Shown piece after piece: positions 42,213 to 49,725 of a stretch of DNA of 64,000 nt. The DNA is taken from positions 80,267-144,266 of IMG/VR virus record IMGVR_UViG_3300031920_000341. The stretch is one strand, 5' to 3'. The notes below the pieces were generated by a model that did not search any database, was not told the origin of the DNA, and saw only the letters and a list, made by a program, of their open reading frames with translations. Position numbers and translations under genes: made by a program. Every line of letters begins with the position of its first letter. The first letter of the stretch is position 1. The stretch comes from a virus.

Positions 42213-43016
42213 ATGATACAAAAGAATAATTTAAAAAATAATGTATTTAGAAATGCAACAATTGCAGCATTGGATCATTTGAATCGTGTAATTATATTAC
42301 AACAACATGAAACAGATGGAATTCATGAATATCCAATAAAATTCTTTTACGATTTTAAAAACGATAAACAGTTTATAAAAGATATGTTTTTAGAATTGCC
42401 GCATGGTTGTGCTATACCTAGTCATGCCGAAGGTAATTTTGATATAAGTCCCAAAGGTACATTAATTCTTAATAATTTTGTTGTAAAAAAAGATGAAATA
42501 ACAAATAGATTTGTTCGTGCCACAAAATCTCAAATAACATATGATGAAAATAATAATCCACAAAAGAAAGCATATTCTGGTTTAATGTTTGTAATGCCTA
42601 TGAAGTTATCATATACGTTAACATTATATTCGGATTCTCAACTTCAAATGTATTTATTGGCACAAGAAGTGTTATCACAAGTATACAAGAATACTATACT
42701 ATATTATGAATACGATGGAATGAGAATGCCAGTACAACTATATATTGGAGAAGATCCAAATGCAACATTACCAACCGAATTTAAATGGGAAAATGATGAT
42801 GAACATAGAATGCAAATTGCAGTATCTGTTGAAACATTTTTACCGGTATTTGATGAAAAATCATTAATATTTAAAGGTAATAGAATACACGAATTTTATA
42901 ACAATATTTATAATGATAATCAAGAGTATTTAATTAGAGCGGATGTTGTTACAAAAGATACTGTACTTAAAGTTAATCCTACTGAATCATCACAGGATGA
43001 TATAAATTTAGGTTAA
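42213..43016 (+). CDS. gp15-like tail sheath stabilizer/completion protein, 267 aa
   Basis: Length and pattern match T4 gp15 (272 aa): an N-terminal VFRNATIAALDHLNRVIILQ (gp15: FRRYATLMGDLFSNIQIKR), then YPIKFFYDFKNDKQFIKDMF, a 'LPHGCAIPSHAEGNFDIS' segment (gp15: LPRINLHLVDF), PMKLSYTLTLYSDSQLQMYL then LAQEVLSQVY (gp15: IYELSIFTRYEDDMFQIVEQ then ILPYF), and HRMQIAVSVETFLPVFDE near the C-terminus (gp15: WSLTFEVNGWMYPP). gp15 caps the tail tube and sheath and joins the head connector. Its 3' end overlaps that of the convergent tube-like gene by 9 nt. Confidence 0.65.
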   Translation: MIQKNNLKNNVFRNATIAALDHLNRVIILQQHETDGIHEYPIKFFYDFKNDKQFIKDMFLELPHGCAIPSHAEGNFDISPKGTLILNNFVVKKDEITNRFVRATKSQITYDENNNPQKKAYSGLMFVMPMKLSYTLTLYSDSQLQMYLLAQEVLSQVYKNTILYYEYDGMRMPVQLYIGEDPNATLPTEFKWENDDEHRMQIAVSVETFLPVFDEKSLIFKGNRIHEFYNNIYNDNQEYLIRADVVTKDTVLKVNPTESSQDDINLG

Positions 43017-43574
43017 CTTTTCTAACTGATCATGATTTAATGTTAAATCCCAATCATTATATGTAAACTTTGCTGTGAATGTATTCATTATAGGTTCGTT
43101 CTTACTATATGCCATTTTAAAATTTGTCATACCAGTAAGAATTACTTTATGTAAATCTAAGAAAATCATAGCATACCCTTCATTATTAAGCAATACTATT
43201 CTGAATCCATCAAAATATTGTTGTTTATTATTGAAATCTAAATACTGTAATGCGTTATCATAAAATATAAAATAATTAATAAATGCATCGCTGAGTTTAA
43301 ACTCAACATTAAATTGTCTTTCAACCAAATCTTTTATAGGCTTAGCATTTTTAAAGTCTTGTTCTGCACCATGCATTCTAGTCTGTCTAACCATTCCCAT
43401 ATCCCAACCAGGAAAATCAATAGAAGATATTGTACTAGACATAAAATCATCTAATCTATCATATGGCAATAGCATTTGCTTATGATAAGCATTATATCGT
43501 TCTTGTATTTCCGAATAAAAAAAAGTATTAGGAAACAACAGTATAAAATTATTTAATCGTTGGTTTAATATCAT
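43008..43574 (-). CDS. Tail-tube-like protein (tube or baseplate tube-cap), 188 aa
   Basis: Size and layout fit the T4 gp19/gp54 tube fold family: an N-terminal helix and loop, SSISSIDFPGWDMGM-type strands (the sequence reads SSTISSIDFPGWDMG), LKLS-type helical VEFKLSDAFINYFIFYDNAL, a beta-hairpin GFRIVLLNNEGYAMIFLDLH, and the C-terminal TFTAKFTYNDWDLTL, comparable with gp19's TFEVTLALDYWE. The resemblance is structural-pattern level only. Neighbouring baseplate-J and gp15-like genes support a tail role. It could be the major tube protein or a minor tube initiator; low residue identity prevents a firm choice. Confidence 0.45.
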   Translation of the reverse strand: MILNQRLNNFILLFPNTFFYSEIQERYNAYHKQMLLPYDRLDDFMSSTISSIDFPGWDMGMVRQTRMHGAEQDFKNAKPIKDLVERQFNVEFKLSDAFINYFIFYDNALQYLDFNNKQQYFDGFRIVLLNNEGYAMIFLDLHKVILTGMTNFKMAYSKNEPIMNTFTAKFTYNDWDLTLNHDQLEKLT

Positions 43575-43975
43575 TATTTCATAAACATGTTTATTATGTA
43601 TACTATTGCAGCAAATGCGCTAGTACCGCCAATTATAATGAGCGATATTCTTAATAATAAGAATTTACTCAAATTTACAATAGAATTTTTAACCGATTCT
43701 AATGTTTGTTCAATTTTATATAACATATCCAATTTCTGTTTCATTGAATCTAATTTGTCATCTAATCCTTCATTGCTTGAATTCACAACTTCAGTTAGTA
43801 ATTTCACAAGACCATCACGATTTTTGAAAAAATCTACTGTGCCTTTCGTATTGCTATTAATTTCAGATAATATATTATTTTGAGCTTCCGTTCTCTTAGC
43901 AAAGAGCTCGAATGTTTTAATCAAAATACTAATGTCATCTTTAATTACACCATCAGGGAATAATGCTTCATCCAT
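43574..43975 (-). CDS. Coiled-coil protein with C-terminal membrane anchor, 133 aa
   Basis: Residues about 15-105 are a continuous helical, heptad-like region (FELFAKRTEAQNNILSEI, then DDKLDSMKQKLDMLYKIEQT). Residues about 109-130 are a single membrane-spanning segment (LLLRISLIIIGGTSAFAAIV), leaving a 3-4 residue tail ending FMK. This is a tail-anchored topology with the coiled coil in the cytoplasm. Its start overlaps the stop of the triple-PAS gene (TAATG), so the two are translationally coupled. A membrane-tethered partner of the PAS protein, or a lysis/membrane-remodelling factor, are both possible; neither is shown by the sequence. Confidence 0.65.
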   Translation of the reverse strand: MDEALFPDGVIKDDISILIKTFELFAKRTEAQNNILSEINSNTKGTVDFFKNRDGLVKLLTEVVNSSNEGLDDKLDSMKQKLDMLYKIEQTLESVKNSIVNLSKFLLLRISLIIIGGTSAFAAIVYIINMFMK

Positions 43976-45675
43976 TACACTTTACCTTTTTTTAAGGAAT
44001 CAGCAAGTTCGCTGTTAGACCGTACTAATTTATCTATGTTGTTATTTAACATTAAAAAAGCTTCAACATTTCTTTTAGTTGTAATGTCATTTATTACATA
44101 GATAGTATGCTCTCCATCTTCAGAGATTGACCTTCTTGCACTTATACTAACAAGAATTATATTTCCGCTATCATCAATAAGTTTAAATTCAGCATTATTT
44201 ATTTTTGGTTTTGAATTTAGCATATTTGATAAATTTCTAAAATCATTTTTATCTAAGAATAATGTACCAATATTTTTATTCAATAATTCTTCAAATGATT
44301 TTAATTTAAATAATTCAATCAATGGATCATTTGCAAATATTATATCATTAGCCTTATTGCATGCAATAACAGGTTCAGGTATCATATTTATTAAGTTTTT
44401 AAACTTCTTTTTTTCATGTTCAATTTTAGTTTGAGCTAATTTTTGTTCAGTAATATTAGTTAATAATTTAAATCTAACTTTACTACCATCAATCCAATCA
44501 ATTGATTTCATTGTTATTAAATAATATAAACCAGATACACTATCAAAATATTCAGTATTTACTACATGTTCATCATCTTCTTCAAGTTTGTAGTTATAAC
44601 AATCATTACAAACTTCATCTCTTGAATGTACCGCATAATGACATGTTTCATTAACAAATGATTTCTCAAAATGATCATTTGAATATTTATTTGAAAATAT
44701 AATTTCATTAGTATCAAATCTACTAACATAAATTGGCGATTCTATGCTATTAAACAATGAATACATTTTATCATGTTCAATCTTAACTATATTTTCAGCT
44801 TTTTTTCGTTCTGTTATGTTTATCATTATTCCACGAGTACCAGATATTTTACCATTTTTAACACGATTTATTCTTAATATAACCGGAAAAATTTCTCCTT
44901 TTGAATTTATTCCATAAATATCTTGTGTCATTGTTTGTTTTTCAGCATGTATACACATATCAAAAATTGCTTTAACCGTATCAACATTTTCTTTAGCAAT
45001 AAAATCAATTAAGTTAACTTTGCTTAAATCTACATCAGAATCTATACCAAATGTTTCATATCCATCATTATTTAAAAATAAAAAATTACCATCCACATCG
45101 GTTTCAAATATAATTTCAGGAAGCATTTCTGCAATTTCTTTATATTTAGTTTGACTTTTAATTAATTCATGTTTTGTTTCTTGTCCAATTATGAAATTTC
45201 TTAGAATATTAATTATACTATTAAATGGTATTTCAACACTTTCTGTTATATCTATACCTGCATCGGTTTCAACAAGAATAAAACCCCAACATCCATTATT
45301 TGATGAAATAGGAAATATTCTAATATTTGAATTTTCGCTTAATGTAAAATCACTTATATCACCTTTTGATATTCCTTTAAGTTCTGTAATCATTTTTGAT
45401 TTACATAAATTATTTGCAAATTCCATAGATATTTCTTTTTTCTCAGGAGTTAAATAATTTGTTAATCTACCATTTTTCGATAAAATGAAAGTTTGGTCAA
45501 TTATTGGTTTATCATGTTTAGATATCTTGTATAATGATACTATTGAATTGGCGCTACAATCATTTATAAAATCCATAAATATATTTTGTAATGCAATAAT
45601 AAAATCTTTTTCATTATCCTGTGCTTCAGTAAGAGCTAATAAGTGTGTATGGAAGTCGACTAAATTTTTTTTCAT
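43975..45675 (-). CDS. GAF-like/PAS/PAS/PAS sensory protein without output domain, 566 aa
   Basis: Residues about 15-165 look GAF-like. PAS1 (about 175-295) reads YKEIAEMLPEIIFETDVDGN and closes with GTRGIMINITERKKAE, a textbook PAS/PAC end. PAS2 (about 300-420) has IESPIYVSRFDTNEIIFSN, a Cys cluster CHYAVHSRDEVCNDC (C345, C356, C359), and closes VRFKLLTNITEQKLAQ. PAS3 (about 424-540) has INMIPEPVIACNKANDIIFA and closes TIYVINDITTKRN. There is no histidine-kinase, GGDEF, EAL, HTH or receiver domain after it, and no membrane segment. PAS domains bind small ligands, haem or flavin, or mediate protein contacts. It is embedded in a tail-gene operon and coupled to a membrane-anchored coiled-coil gene. 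Possible recent acquisition from a bacterial sensor. Confidence 0.85.
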   Translation of the reverse strand: MKKNLVDFHTHLLALTEAQDNEKDFIIALQNIFMDFINDCSANSIVSLYKISKHDKPIIDQTFILSKNGRLTNYLTPEKKEISMEFANNLCKSKMITELKGISKGDISDFTLSENSNIRIFPISSNNGCWGFILVETDAGIDITESVEIPFNSIINILRNFIIGQETKHELIKSQTKYKEIAEMLPEIIFETDVDGNFLFLNNDGYETFGIDSDVDLSKVNLIDFIAKENVDTVKAIFDMCIHAEKQTMTQDIYGINSKGEIFPVILRINRVKNGKISGTRGIMINITERKKAENIVKIEHDKMYSLFNSIESPIYVSRFDTNEIIFSNKYSNDHFEKSFVNETCHYAVHSRDEVCNDCYNYKLEEDDEHVVNTEYFDSVSGLYYLITMKSIDWIDGSKVRFKLLTNITEQKLAQTKIEHEKKKFKNLINMIPEPVIACNKANDIIFANDPLIELFKLKSFEELLNKNIGTLFLDKNDFRNLSNMLNSKPKINNAEFKLIDDSGNIILVSISARRSISEDGEHTIYVINDITTKRNVEAFLMLNNNIDKLVRSNSELADSLKKGKV

Positions 45676-45677
45676 TT

Positions 45678-45923
45678 TTAGTTAAGTCTTTTTTCATTTT
45701 TATGCGTAGCAATATTTGCAAATGTTTTAATTGATTTAACAGATTCAATTAATTGATACATTATATCATTAACATAAGTTAAGAATGTGGTAAATGTTGT
45801 ATTGGAACTATACATTTTAGCTGATAGATTACGTTCCATTACAACATCTTTATAGTCAAACCCTTGGTGTAATAACTTATCATTACGAGTGTTAAGTTTC
45901 CAATATAAACCATCATGTATCAT
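45678..45923 (-). CDS. Hypothetical protein, 81 aa
   Basis: Small, mixed-charge protein (MIHDGLYWKLNTRNDKLLHQ, then FTTFLTYVNDIMYQLIESVK), probably a beta-hairpin followed by two helices. No known family. It overlaps the stop of the Nudix-fusion gene (shared base 45923) and ends 2 nt before the PAS gene, so it is translated as part of the operon 49725-43008. Confidence 0.55.
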   Translation of the reverse strand: MIHDGLYWKLNTRNDKLLHQGFDYKDVVMERNLSAKMYSSNTTFTTFLTYVNDIMYQLIESVKSIKTFANIATHKNEKRLN

Positions 45924-47269
45924 TACACTAAGTATTTTTTTAATTCCTCCATAACATTATCCTTTAATAATTTAACACCATAGTGTAATTTCTTAGGATT
46001 TGCTTCAAAGAGTTCATTCCAACTAAACCATTGATATTTTTCTATTTCCCAATTTGGTTGTGGCATAAATTCGTCACCGACTAAGCCAACATAATTATAG
46101 AAAGTAAATCCATTGGATTGATTAACATAAACTTCATTTAATGTTAATTCGCCCATATATCCGGTCTCATCTGAAAATAGTCTTTCGCTTTCTATTTTCG
46201 CATGCTCATTATTATTTATTTGTTTATTTAAGTTAAATGTTATCAAACCCCAAGTTCCTGCTTCCGCATCCTCTGCTGAACGCTTACCAAGTAGTATTTG
46301 TTTAGTTTTTGTTGAAATAACAAATACACCTGCCGCAGTCTTCTCACCATGTTCGTCTACGATTTCATTTAAGCTCATATATGGAGTTAAAATAGAAATT
46401 ACACGTTCCAATATTTCTTCCTTTTTATCATCGTTTACATTCCACCATGTTTGTCCACCATCATCACTAAAATATGATGGATCACGTAAGTTTTGCCACA
46501 TAACTCCAGATTCTCCACTAATTACTTCAGCTGTATCTTGCCATTCAAATGGATTATTAGTTATTGGAGTTATTGTTTTATATTGAGCAAGTAAATCAAA
46601 TAATTGTGTTGTCATTCCTGCACTAAATCCACTATGTCCTTGTTTTGAAAATTTATCAATAAGTTCTATAACAGATTTTGATACCATATTATTATATTGC
46701 GCAGAAATTTTATCATCAGTTTCACTAGGATTCTCTTCAATCATTCCAGCAAGCATTAGTTCACGTTTAGCGTGTGCAACCAATGCACCTTCAAAGGTAG
46801 GAATAAATTCAGTATAACGCGATTCTTGAATTAAATCTAATCCATTAAGATATTCAAGAAGTTCTTCTGAAGTATCAAAGGTTTTATAAACACTATGCCC
46901 AAATGTATAAATACTACTTGTTCTTCCACCCATTACAAATGAATGATAGGCCTTAGCTAATTCAACATCATCCATATTGTATACACCATACTTTCTAAAA
47001 TTATCTGTTATTTCAGGATATATTGTTTCTTGAAAATCACTTGCTTTATCAAAACCCTTTTCAGGTAATGATACAAGCTCTTCATGACTCATTGGAATTC
47101 TGTATATTTCATTACCAGAATCATTTCTATGTATAAATAGAAATATTTTCTCATCATTTTCTTCAAACGCATAACATTGCACATAATTTGGATCATCATC
47201 ATCAGTAAATATTAAAATACGTAATGGGTCCATTCCAATTATATTTCCTTGTGAATCAATTTCAGCCAT
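45923..47269 (-). CDS. Phage 'GHSGFSA' domain protein fused to a degenerate Nudix domain, 448 aa
   Basis: Residues about 195-280 carry a motif set seen in phage hypothetical proteins: VIELIDKFSKQGHSGFSAGM, QYKTITPITNNPFEW, then NLRDPSYFSDDGGQTWWNV. Residues about 310-430 are Nudix-like: AAGVFVISTKTKQILLGKR, then a box region with ESERLFSDETGY, then IEKYQWFSWNEL. Compared with the consensus GX5EX7REUXEEXGU, the Gly/Pro-Gly-Gly start is replaced (ITFNLNK) and the Glu of RE is Leu, while D366/E367 and G369 remain. The domain may have weak activity or only bind nucleotides. The N-terminal 190 residues are unrecognised. Co-transcribed with the DUF5661-like gene (2-nt gap). Confidence 0.65.
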   Translation of the reverse strand: MAEIDSQGNIIGMDPLRILIFTDDDDPNYVQCYAFEENDEKIFLFIHRNDSGNEIYRIPMSHEELVSLPEKGFDKASDFQETIYPEITDNFRKYGVYNMDDVELAKAYHSFVMGGRTSSIYTFGHSVYKTFDTSEELLEYLNGLDLIQESRYTEFIPTFEGALVAHAKRELMLAGMIEENPSETDDKISAQYNNMVSKSVIELIDKFSKQGHSGFSAGMTTQLFDLLAQYKTITPITNNPFEWQDTAEVISGESGVMWQNLRDPSYFSDDGGQTWWNVNDDKKEEILERVISILTPYMSLNEIVDEHGEKTAAGVFVISTKTKQILLGKRSAEDAEAGTWGLITFNLNKQINNNEHAKIESERLFSDETGYMGELTLNEVYVNQSNGFTFYNYVGLVGDEFMPQPNWEIEKYQWFSWNELFEANPKKLHYGVKLLKDNVMEELKKYLV

Positions 47270-47271
47270 TT

Positions 47272-48084
47272 TTATTGTTGTTTTATTAATTTAATAACAT
47301 CAGATTCGGTTAATTTATATTTGCTAAGTAAACCTTCTAAGTTATCACTTGTTTCAATTACATTAGGTTTTTGATTTGGTTTTATTGACCATATGCCAAA
47401 TCTTGGTATTGTAAATTGTGGTCCATCTGTTTGTTGTACTACTGGCGAAATACCTAAATCAGTTATAAAGATTTCTGTATTAGGACCTTCGCTTTCATTA
47501 ATTAATATTTCATACATATCAGCTTCTTCATCTGTTACAATTCCTAGTTGCTTAGCTAAAGCTATTGCTGTTTTTTCATCAACTAAACCAGATTTAATCA
47601 GTTCAGTATAATATTCTTTATTTTGGTCTAAGTGATCCATTGATATTTCCATGGCAGCATCTTCGTATTTAGTATGTTCTTTTTGAACTTGTACCCCAAC
47701 CGCTAATTGATCTTGAGGATAATCATCAGGATCATGTCCATCGCTGTAGTCGAGACCTTCTTTTTCAAATTCAGGAAAATCTTCAATATCAAGACCATTT
47801 TGTGTAGCAAGATAAGACATGACAGCTTCAGCAAAAAGTAATTTAATTGCTTCCATATCTTCTTCACCTAAGTCATTTAATGTTATTTCGGTTTCATCAC
47901 TTAAATTTTCTATACCTTGTACTTCACCTGGTTCATATCCCCCTTCTGGAAGATTAAAAGAAATTATAAGATCAAGAGGATCATTATTATCAGTAAATTT
48001 TTGATGTAATACATTTATCAATTGAGATTTATTCTCATCTAATACACCGTGTTTAAATTCATTTATTGTTGGGACAGTATACAT
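47272..48084 (-). CDS. DUF5661-like protein, 270 aa
   Basis: Residues about 125-165 match the DUF5661 signature (LxVGxxVExEHT...A.EIA.DHLxE.p.YYT.L): here LAVGVQVQKEHTKYEDAAME, then ISMDHLDQNKEYYTEL. The function of DUF5661 is unknown to me. The N-terminal 120 residues are acidic, with a helix at 76-100; the C-terminal 50 residues end in a helix rich in Ser/Lys. It starts 1 nt after the baseplate-J gene's stop and precedes the Nudix fusion by 2 nt, so it is a tail-operon product. Confidence 0.65.
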   Translation of the reverse strand: MYTVPTINEFKHGVLDENKSQLINVLHQKFTDNNDPLDLIISFNLPEGGYEPGEVQGIENLSDETEITLNDLGEEDMEAIKLLFAEAVMSYLATQNGLDIEDFPEFEKEGLDYSDGHDPDDYPQDQLAVGVQVQKEHTKYEDAAMEISMDHLDQNKEYYTELIKSGLVDEKTAIALAKQLGIVTDEEADMYEILINESEGPNTEIFITDLGISPVVQQTDGPQFTIPRFGIWSIKPNQKPNVIETSDNLEGLLSKYKLTESDVIKLIKQQ

Positions 48085-49725
48085 TTATTCAGATCTTTTT
48101 GTTATATCTTTTATAAGTATGTTCATACTACATAGATTTTCATCAGATAATCCACTTTCATATGTATTGCCATACCTATCACTCCAACCACCACGTATAA
48201 TTGGTAATTCATTCTTAGCAATAATTATGTCATTAAAACTATCAATACTAATATTATCAGAATTAGGATATAGTATTTTATGTTTTTCATTCTTTTCACT
48301 AATTATATTTATTGATACTGAATCAACACCACTAATATCTTCAATGATTTTAATTATATCACTTTTTGGTATTCTATCAGATCTACTAATTGTTAAGAAG
48401 TAATTACTTACGGCATCAATGATATCAATTTTAATAATATCAGTTGGTACATCATCATAAGATACAATTCCTATGTTAAGTACATACCTACTAATTATTG
48501 GATCAACTATTTTTATATCAGTTGCAATAATCTTAGTTCCCATCATTTCTATTGTCTGTAATAATCTTTCTTTTTGAGTTGTGGAAAGTAAGAATCGTTT
48601 TTCTTCAATTGTAAAATAATTTTCATTTCCAGTTAATAATAAATCAACACGTGGAATTAAAAATAAATTTAACATACGTTGATCGTCTGGATCAGGAAAT
48701 ATTCTGATTATTGAGAATGACTGTAACCGTTTTAATAATAATTCATAATTAGGATAACTAACAAGAGGCGTTTCGCTTTTTGATATCATTTGTCTTGTTA
48801 AAGTAATAGGTTCAGCATTTGCTCCATAATAGGGCGCAAGTGTAGTAGTAGGTTTAAGTATACCATTAATATCAAGTTCTTCTCCAAATATTGTGAAACA
48901 ACTATCTTTAAATTCAAATGATACGGCTTCGGGATTACTTACATTTATATTACCTGCTAATCCATCAGATATTAAATATTCAACACGTATTTCGGTTCCT
49001 AATTCAGGAACAGTACCAAAGTGTCCATTACCAAAAAATATATCAATACCAGATGTAACACCAGTTCTGATATAGAATCCTTGATCTTCTCTTGGCATTT
49101 CAAATATTTTTGTATATCTTTTGAATTTTACATCATTAACATATACATTTACATAATGATTATCAATAAGAAAGTTTTTACTAAACTGTAATGAGAAACT
49201 TTGATAATCTGTTCCTTTACCAGTAAAATATTGTGTTTCGATTCTACCTTGTTTTAATACGATTCTTGTACTTGTTGCAAGATCTTCTGTATTTATTTTA
49301 ATTTCATCTTGTGGTAAAATCATTGAATAATCTAGACTATTATTTAAACAAGTTAATATTGAATAATTAGGTATTATAATAGTATGGTTTGGTATTTCAT
49401 CAATAATTGTAGTAAGCGGTGTTACTGAGATTTCAGCCGAAGCGGCAATACCTCTACTTGGTTGATATCCATTCATAGATGATAGTGAATGTACAGAGGT
49501 CATACGTGACGCCTCTTTGATGTTTAATTCGGTTATCGCATCTTCTATATAATAGAAAATTAAGTGTGCCAAGTTTTGAAGCACAAATAATATTTGCCCA
49601 AACGGAGATGCTACTGTAAATATCTTTCTTGATTGCTTAAATCTATCTACAAGATAATCTGTTGCATCAATTAGAAGCTCATGTGTTTTTATTCTGAGTG
49701 TATTGAATATTTTTAACGTGCTCAT
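48085..49725 (-). CDS. Baseplate wedge protein, baseplate J/gp6 family, 546 aa
   Basis: Forms the baseplate wedge ring that triggers sheath contraction. The baseplate-J signature is clear at residues 231-259: FGNGHFGTVPELG, then EIRVEYLISDGLAGN. The N-terminal helical part (KTHELLIDATDYLVDRFKQS) and the C-terminal VDPIISRYVLNIGIVSYDD region followed by KIDIIDAVSNYFLTISRSDR (the 'fl.P' half of the family) are in the right order. T4 gp6 is 660 aa, so this is somewhat shorter. First gene of the minus-strand operon, with a perfect TATAAATA late box 27-34 nt upstream of ATG. Confidence 0.85.
   Translation of the reverse strand: MSTLKIFNTLRIKTHELLIDATDYLVDRFKQSRKIFTVASPFGQILFVLQNLAHLIFYYIEDAITELNIKEASRMTSVHSLSSMNGYQPSRGIAASAEISVTPLTTIIDEIPNHTIIIPNYSILTCLNNSLDYSMILPQDEIKINTEDLATSTRIVLKQGRIETQYFTGKGTDYQSFSLQFSKNFLIDNHYVNVYVNDVKFKRYTKIFEMPREDQGFYIRTGVTSGIDIFFGNGHFGTVPELGTEIRVEYLISDGLAGNINVSNPEAVSFEFKDSCFTIFGEELDINGILKPTTTLAPYYGANAEPITLTRQMISKSETPLVSYPNYELLLKRLQSFSIIRIFPDPDDQRMLNLFLIPRVDLLLTGNENYFTIEEKRFLLSTTQKERLLQTIEMMGTKIIATDIKIVDPIISRYVLNIGIVSYDDVPTDIIKIDIIDAVSNYFLTISRSDRIPKSDIIKIIEDISGVDSVSINIISEKNEKHKILYPNSDNISIDSFNDIIIAKNELPIIRGGWSDRYGNTYESGLSDENLCSMNILIKDITKRSE

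Follow-up and report, generated by a model that had tools for sequence, protein, structure and literature searches.

A huge phage of bacteria carries an intact gene for an array of three PAS domains that ends without a recognizable output domain, followed by a gene for a small coiled-coil membrane protein, tm133. Both genes lie in the window, by which we mean the whole 64,000-nt stretch of DNA analysed (positions 80,267 to 144,266 of IMG/VR record IMGVR_UViG_3300031920_000341), which is part of a virus record of 208,266 bp. The PAS module is real and uncommon, and its kind is already present in the isolates Atu_ph07 and Phosso. The PAS protein is probably a sensor that acts by binding in trans. 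The reading that we prefer, at slightly less than even confidence, is that it is a stand-alone sensory input module signalling in trans, first to tm133 as membrane partner, in a late membrane-linked decision.

The PAS-array gene and its domains

The open reading frame of the PAS-array gene (Table 1) starts with ATG and contains no internal stop codons, and with this base composition a frame of such length would stay open by chance with a probability of ~7e-27. In codon usage the gene agrees with the core genes of the phage (GC3 0.118; codon distance 0.149, with 0.08-0.36 for other genes of the window). It is very probably a coding gene, and the gene is intact. Host contamination is excluded because s81 and c188, both conserved in relatives of the phage, flank it on the two sides.

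Table 1. Positions in the window of the operon genes and of the domains of the PAS-array protein
Feature	Position	Strand	Basis
Baseplate wedge-like protein	48085..49725	-	phrog_219, 1.5e-31
p270, accessory, same operon	47272..48084	-	Profile search, comparison with relatives
Tad3 (type I Thoeris inhibitor) and NUDIX fusion, accessory, same operon	45923..47269	-	7e-30
s81, conserved, directly after the baseplate gene in relatives	45678..45923	-	Comparison of relatives
PAS-array gene, 566 aa, without output domain	43975..45675	-	Pfam, AlphaFold2, fold search
GAF-like domain, residues 1-150, probable	45226..45675	-	AlphaFold2 topology, weak Foldseek GAF matches
PAS1 with linker helix, residues 180-290, ends NITERK	44806..45138	-	Pfam/TIGR00229, AlphaFold2
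PAS2, residues 308-412, ends NITEQK	44440..44754	-	Bacterial relatives, AlphaFold2
CX10CX2C motif (C345, C356, C359)	44599..44643	-	Sequence; common PAS motif
PAS3, residues 430-533, ends DITTKR	44077..44388	-	Pfam, AlphaFold2
C-terminal helix after PAS3, usual place of an output domain	43978..44082	-	AlphaFold2 helix 532-562
tm133, coiled-coil protein, one C-terminal TM segment	43574..43975	-	ATG overlaps PAS stop
c188, conserved, downstream; slot before it variable in relatives	43008..43574	-	Comparison of relatives

PAS1 and PAS3 were matched by profiles (Pfam PAS_9, 4e-16; PAS, 2e-14; TIGR00229 sensory_box, 4e-22). PAS2 alone gave no Pfam match, and the region containing it (residues 299-476) has clear bacterial PAS relatives (7e-23). 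AlphaFold2, run on an alignment of 34 rows with hand-selected bacterial PAS segments, placed PAS folds at residues 188-286, 315-407, and 436-530 with pLDDT mostly above 90, and the best PDB fold matches obtained with Foldseek include PpsR, DosP, FixL, and NifL. The canonical [DN]IT motif closes all three domains. The protein is thus a member of the PAS domain superfamily, and the three PAS units proposed in a sequence-only reading of this DNA were confirmed, PAS1 and PAS3 by profiles and PAS2 by its bacterial relatives and its predicted fold. The GAF-like domain proposed in the same reading is probable but not proven. Residues 1-150, modelled from the single sequence, adopt a GAF topology (pLDDT 63), and a GAF domain heads the fold matches of this model, with an E value of only 0.01, but these residues gave no sequence match in Pfam or PDB.

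The reading had also stated that the protein lacks an output domain. In Pfam, NCBIfam, PHROGs, and fold searches, no kinase, cyclase, DNA-binding, or other output domain was found in it; these gave PAS domains only, followed by one helix, and a profile search with residues 412-566 likewise gave PAS only. The profile search that the reading had set as a check against itself therefore supports it. Since neither HisKA nor HATPase was found in this soluble protein, it cannot be classed as a histidine kinase. VqmA of vibriophage VP882 is likewise a phage-encoded PAS sensor but is a transcription factor with a DNA-binding domain (PMC8284805); no such domain was found in the window protein, which sets it apart from one-component regulators of the VqmA type. 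Six-frame translation of the 208-kb record contained no HATPase domain, and no receiver domain (PF00072), and hence no two-component system, was found in the record, which may be incomplete. Searches with the whole PAS protein detected no relative in viral contigs, phage records, or genome contigs, and only partial PAS matches on plasmids; a defence library gave no match.

PAS2 contains a CX10CX2C cluster, which had been suggested to hold haem, Fe-S, or a disulphide. The pattern CY-x5-[RS]DE-x-C-x2-C matched at least 116 stretches in a genome collection, and most of the 80 loci among the matches listed show a PAS-like context. The listed loci belong chiefly to Desulfobacterota, with others in Clostridia, Nitrospirae, archaea, and further groups. 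With three cysteines at CY-x5-RDE-x-C-x2-C spacing in a PAS core, the phage variant, CHYAVHSRDEVCNDC, falls into this Cys-motif PAS subtype. The cluster is therefore present as described, but as a common bacterial and archaeal PAS motif it does not point specially to haem or Fe-S in this protein. The hallmark of FixL-type haem PAS domains is a conserved haem-ligand histidine in helix F; on comparison by eye, no equivalent is apparent in the PAS protein.

A variable slot in the tail operon

Between 49725 and 43008 every gene is on the minus strand, and neighbouring genes are separated or overlap by 0-3 nt. This continuity, together with the baseplate gene, bears out the earlier description of a tail operon, with the refinement that the slot occupied by the PAS gene is an accessory-cargo site in relatives. 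In those phages s81 directly follows the baseplate gene, so p270, Tad3-NUDIX, the PAS gene, and tm133 are extra here; relatives have no Tad3-NUDIX between the baseplate gene and s81. Before c188, the content of the slot differs in relatives and includes large glycosyltransferase-like and adhesin-like genes (assigned by inspection, with no profile search). In three loci (L022, L023, and L025) the region upstream of the c188 homologue exemplifies this variable tail-module slot with large glycosyltransferase-like genes, also recognized by inspection. Scanning with c188 added no relatives. In the annotated collection, the nearest relatives of the baseplate gene are in a 462-kb metagenomic phage, Lak phages, phages of 634-735 kb, and Tenacibaculum phages. 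The Tad3-NUDIX fusion protein has partial matches in 90 phage records, mainly to the Tad3 part, and a sigma-factor-like gene is conserved beside the large terminase gene (L007:15748-16356 in genome G000, and downstream of the terminase in relatives, at L012, L022, and L039).

The PAS stop codon and the tm133 start codon overlap in TAATG. The 133-residue tm133 protein has a heptad-rich region at residues 44-85 ahead of its single TM segment. Homologue searches, including the phage collection, found no relative of tm133, and the defence library gave weak matches only.

The PAS gene could also be a relic of a captured sensor kinase that is now functionless, since it is kinase-less and the homologous slot of the relatives has no PAS gene. 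Such a relic is quite improbable: the frame of 566 codons is intact, codon usage is phage-like, the PAS motifs are preserved, the record contains no kinase remnant, and the gene is tightly coupled to tm133.

PAS arrays and two-component systems of other phages

The best viral match of the PAS protein in a fold library is an Atu_ph07 protein named histidine kinase. This protein of Agrobacterium phage Atu_ph07, AUZ94861.1, is a 536-aa PAS-only array. Its public annotation (MF403008, 36599-38209, "multi-sensor signal transduction histidine") is misleading, as HisKA and HATPase matches are absent. It is preceded, with overlapping stop and start codons, by AUZ94860.1, an 81-aa protein with one TM segment and a coiled coil. 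Sinorhizobium phage Phosso encodes a corresponding pair, the 434-aa PAS-only protein XYS97609.1 and the 81-aa TM/coiled-coil protein XYS97610.1. The two pairs are homologous (37% identity for the 81-aa proteins and 32% for the PAS proteins), and their genes overlap in ATGA or TAATG. Within the phage collection, the 81-aa protein turned up nowhere but next to these PAS genes, and the sole match of the Phosso version was its Atu_ph07 counterpart. Cellulophaga phages phi18:3 and phi19:1 and Bacillus phage G, which the fold search had also suggested, gave no PAS profile match.

The Atu_ph07 pair resembles the window pair in combining a kinase-less PAS array with a small one-TM coiled-coil protein through a stop/start overlap. 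It differs in that the partner gene comes first, the TM segment is N-terminal, no GAF domain was found, and the pair runs opposite to the neighbouring genes. Phosso, with its PAS-only protein and 81-aa TM/coiled-coil gene, shares both the likeness and these differences, and belongs to another host group and another phage lineage. No kinship beyond the PAS fold was detectable between the window and Atu_ph07 PAS proteins (E 0.08). The window pair thus has the architecture of the Atu_ph07/Phosso type without sequence homology to it, and as no sequence similarity was found between the pairs, the relationship is a parallel in architecture. The sequence-only reading had known of no phage system of this kind. 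As to occurrence this did not hold, because Atu_ph07 and Phosso carry PAS-only arrays; as to description it did, since text searches of open-licence literature found no account of such a kinase-less PAS module, those of Atu_ph07 and Phosso included. The main text of a survey of PAS evolution makes no mention of viruses (PMC10468136).

The position of these genes bears on whether the PAS protein is virion cargo, made late with the tail proteins, packaged, and injected for early action in the next host. The window gene sits in a structural operon. In Atu_ph07, CDS 31-76 form a virion-protein cluster with 29 proteins identified in virions (PMC6102473). By our own count of protein accessions from CDS 1, AUZ94861.1 is CDS 49 and falls inside this cluster, 29 being a cluster-level count. 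Against packaging, the slot in relatives of the window phage holds non-structural cargo such as glycosyltransferase-like genes, and the Atu_ph07 and Phosso pairs run opposite to their neighbours. We regard virion carriage as improbable.

PAS profiles were also searched in 48 records, the window's own and 47 that carry relatives of its baseplate gene. Apart from the window phage, PAS domains were found in just two contigs, IMGVR_UViG_3300024346_000014 and 3300009080_000013, whose baseplate genes are ~45% identical to that of the window. Both encode a kinase with two TM segments and PAS-PAS-HATPase organization, a single receiver, and a coiled-coil/TM protein. A further version, in 3300020392_000008, has a kinase 80% identical with receiver and coiled-coil/TM genes adjoining. 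Between the first and third versions, dN/dS was 0.144/1.08 for the kinase, 0.020/2.10 for the receiver, and 0.138/1.68 for the coiled-coil/TM gene, that is, ratios by our own division of ~0.13, 0.01, and 0.08, which are rough because dS is near or above 1. All three genes are under purifying selection. The genes at L064:8222-10935 (+) of IMGVR_UViG_3300024346_000014, with counterparts in 3300009080_000013 and at L224, make up a complete phage-encoded two-component system, and 140 of the 145 receiver residues are identical between two phages. The cassette is like the window pair in placing a PAS-PAS sensor before a coiled-coil/TM protein, and unlike it in having a membrane kinase with a catalytic domain and a receiver, and in lying outside the tail operon. 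A 735-kb phage, LR756501, encodes a 737-aa PAS-HisKA-HATPase-receiver hybrid kinase (L252:796-3009, ~36.1-38.3 kb). It shares with the window phage a PAS array, huge size, and a related baseplate gene, but its protein also carries HisKA, HATPase, and receiver domains. In viral contigs, motif scans picked up PAS only in kinase-like proteins. Short HATPase matches in several phages were not counted as kinases, and a weak PAS match in Lak-C1 was discarded because its ORF had no PAS features.

These systems raise the question of whether the PAS protein is the input half of a split two-component system, with a kinase or receiver elsewhere in the phage genome. Related phages do have the whole system, and the partner would lie beyond the 208-kb record if that record is incomplete. 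In those phages, however, kinase and PAS domains form one protein and the receiver gene is adjacent, whereas the genes adjoining the window PAS gene are neither kinase nor receiver. A split system is very improbable.

How the PAS module may act

A PAS array without an enzyme can act by binding only. Among possible partners tm133 is the natural first one, because it is translationally coupled and because such neighbours recur beside unrelated phage PAS arrays and kinase-receiver pairs. Binding-only action and a recurring coupled neighbour together favour the stand-alone sensor module, and further points for it are the three confidently predicted PAS folds, each with its [DN]IT motif intact, the TAATG coupling, the absence of a kinase or receiver from the record, and the place of the Atu_ph07 gene in a virion-protein cluster. 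In such a module, each PAS domain would pass a change of ligand or redox state via its [DN]IT motif to the linker helices. From the last helix (residues 532-562), which is kinase-free, this state would be handed to a partner in trans. The first partner would be tm133, placed at the inner membrane. It would put into effect a late decision linked to the membrane, for example on when to lyse or on control of the envelope. For tm133 as the direct partner we judge the chances evenly balanced, and lysis or envelope control is rather unlikely to be the process served.

Judged by gene architecture, the Atu_ph07 and Phosso pairs suggest an independent recurrence of the pairing of PAS with a TM/coiled-coil protein, and we count them for the stand-alone module. 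No sequence similarity was found between tm133 and the 192-aa coiled-coil/TM protein of the related phages, nor does the PAS protein resemble that of Atu_ph07, so convergence or coincidence may account for the shared architecture. Phages commonly carry small TM genes, which also counts against reading a meaning into the pairing of PAS with tm133.

The main rival to the stand-alone module is an interceptor of host signalling, in which the PAS array pairs with PAS sensor kinases of the host as heterodimers, or attaches to them in another way, and alters host signalling during infection. PAS domains commonly dimerise, and the array stops at a helix where kinases continue. The predicted anti-defence gene Tad3-NUDIX in the same operon makes host-takeover cargo plausible. 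There is also a precedent in PIT4 of phage LSL4, a phage protein acting on host two-component signalling, which binds several host histidine-kinase domains (PMC10714779). PIT4 differs in that its targets are kinase domains, with no PAS role reported in the abstract (PMC10714779), and mixing between PAS domains is unsupported here. No closely matching host kinase was found either: the best matches, in Bacteroidota, are 24-35% identical, are PAS parts of large proteins, and mostly cover part of the array. The C-terminal helix also did not score as a pre-H-box linker. That the protein ends exactly at this kinase linker looked good by eye but failed in profile and shuffle tests, in which 1,830 of 2,000 shuffles scored as well. 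We consider interception unlikely. Less likely are carriage in the virion, a kinase partner that is missing from the record, and a relic without function.

The usual view of lytic phages is that their programme is fixed. If the stand-alone module is real in function, some giant phages would read the metabolic or redox state of the host and respond to it through direct contact between proteins. The recurrence of the gene pair in two lab-grown giant phages hints at little-noticed sensing of host state. A broader proposal, which we put forward tentatively and hold to be doubtful, is that giant phages repeatedly build an enzyme-free sensor of host state. In this sensor, a PAS array would contact a small membrane coiled-coil effector and gate a late event (lysis, envelope change, or superinfection response), or would hijack host sensor kinases. 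As Atu_ph07 and Phosso are in culture, the sensor idea can be tested now.

Signal sensing as part of huge-phage biology was not described in the open-licence literature that we searched by text, and the complete two-component systems of related phages make it a real part of that biology. Their cassette is perhaps more interesting than the PAS array itself. A class III adenylate/guanylate cyclase gene, also under purifying selection, lies near the two-component genes at L064:12605-13312 (-) and L224:8259-8966 (+) (Pfam Guanylate_cyc, 1.4e-21).
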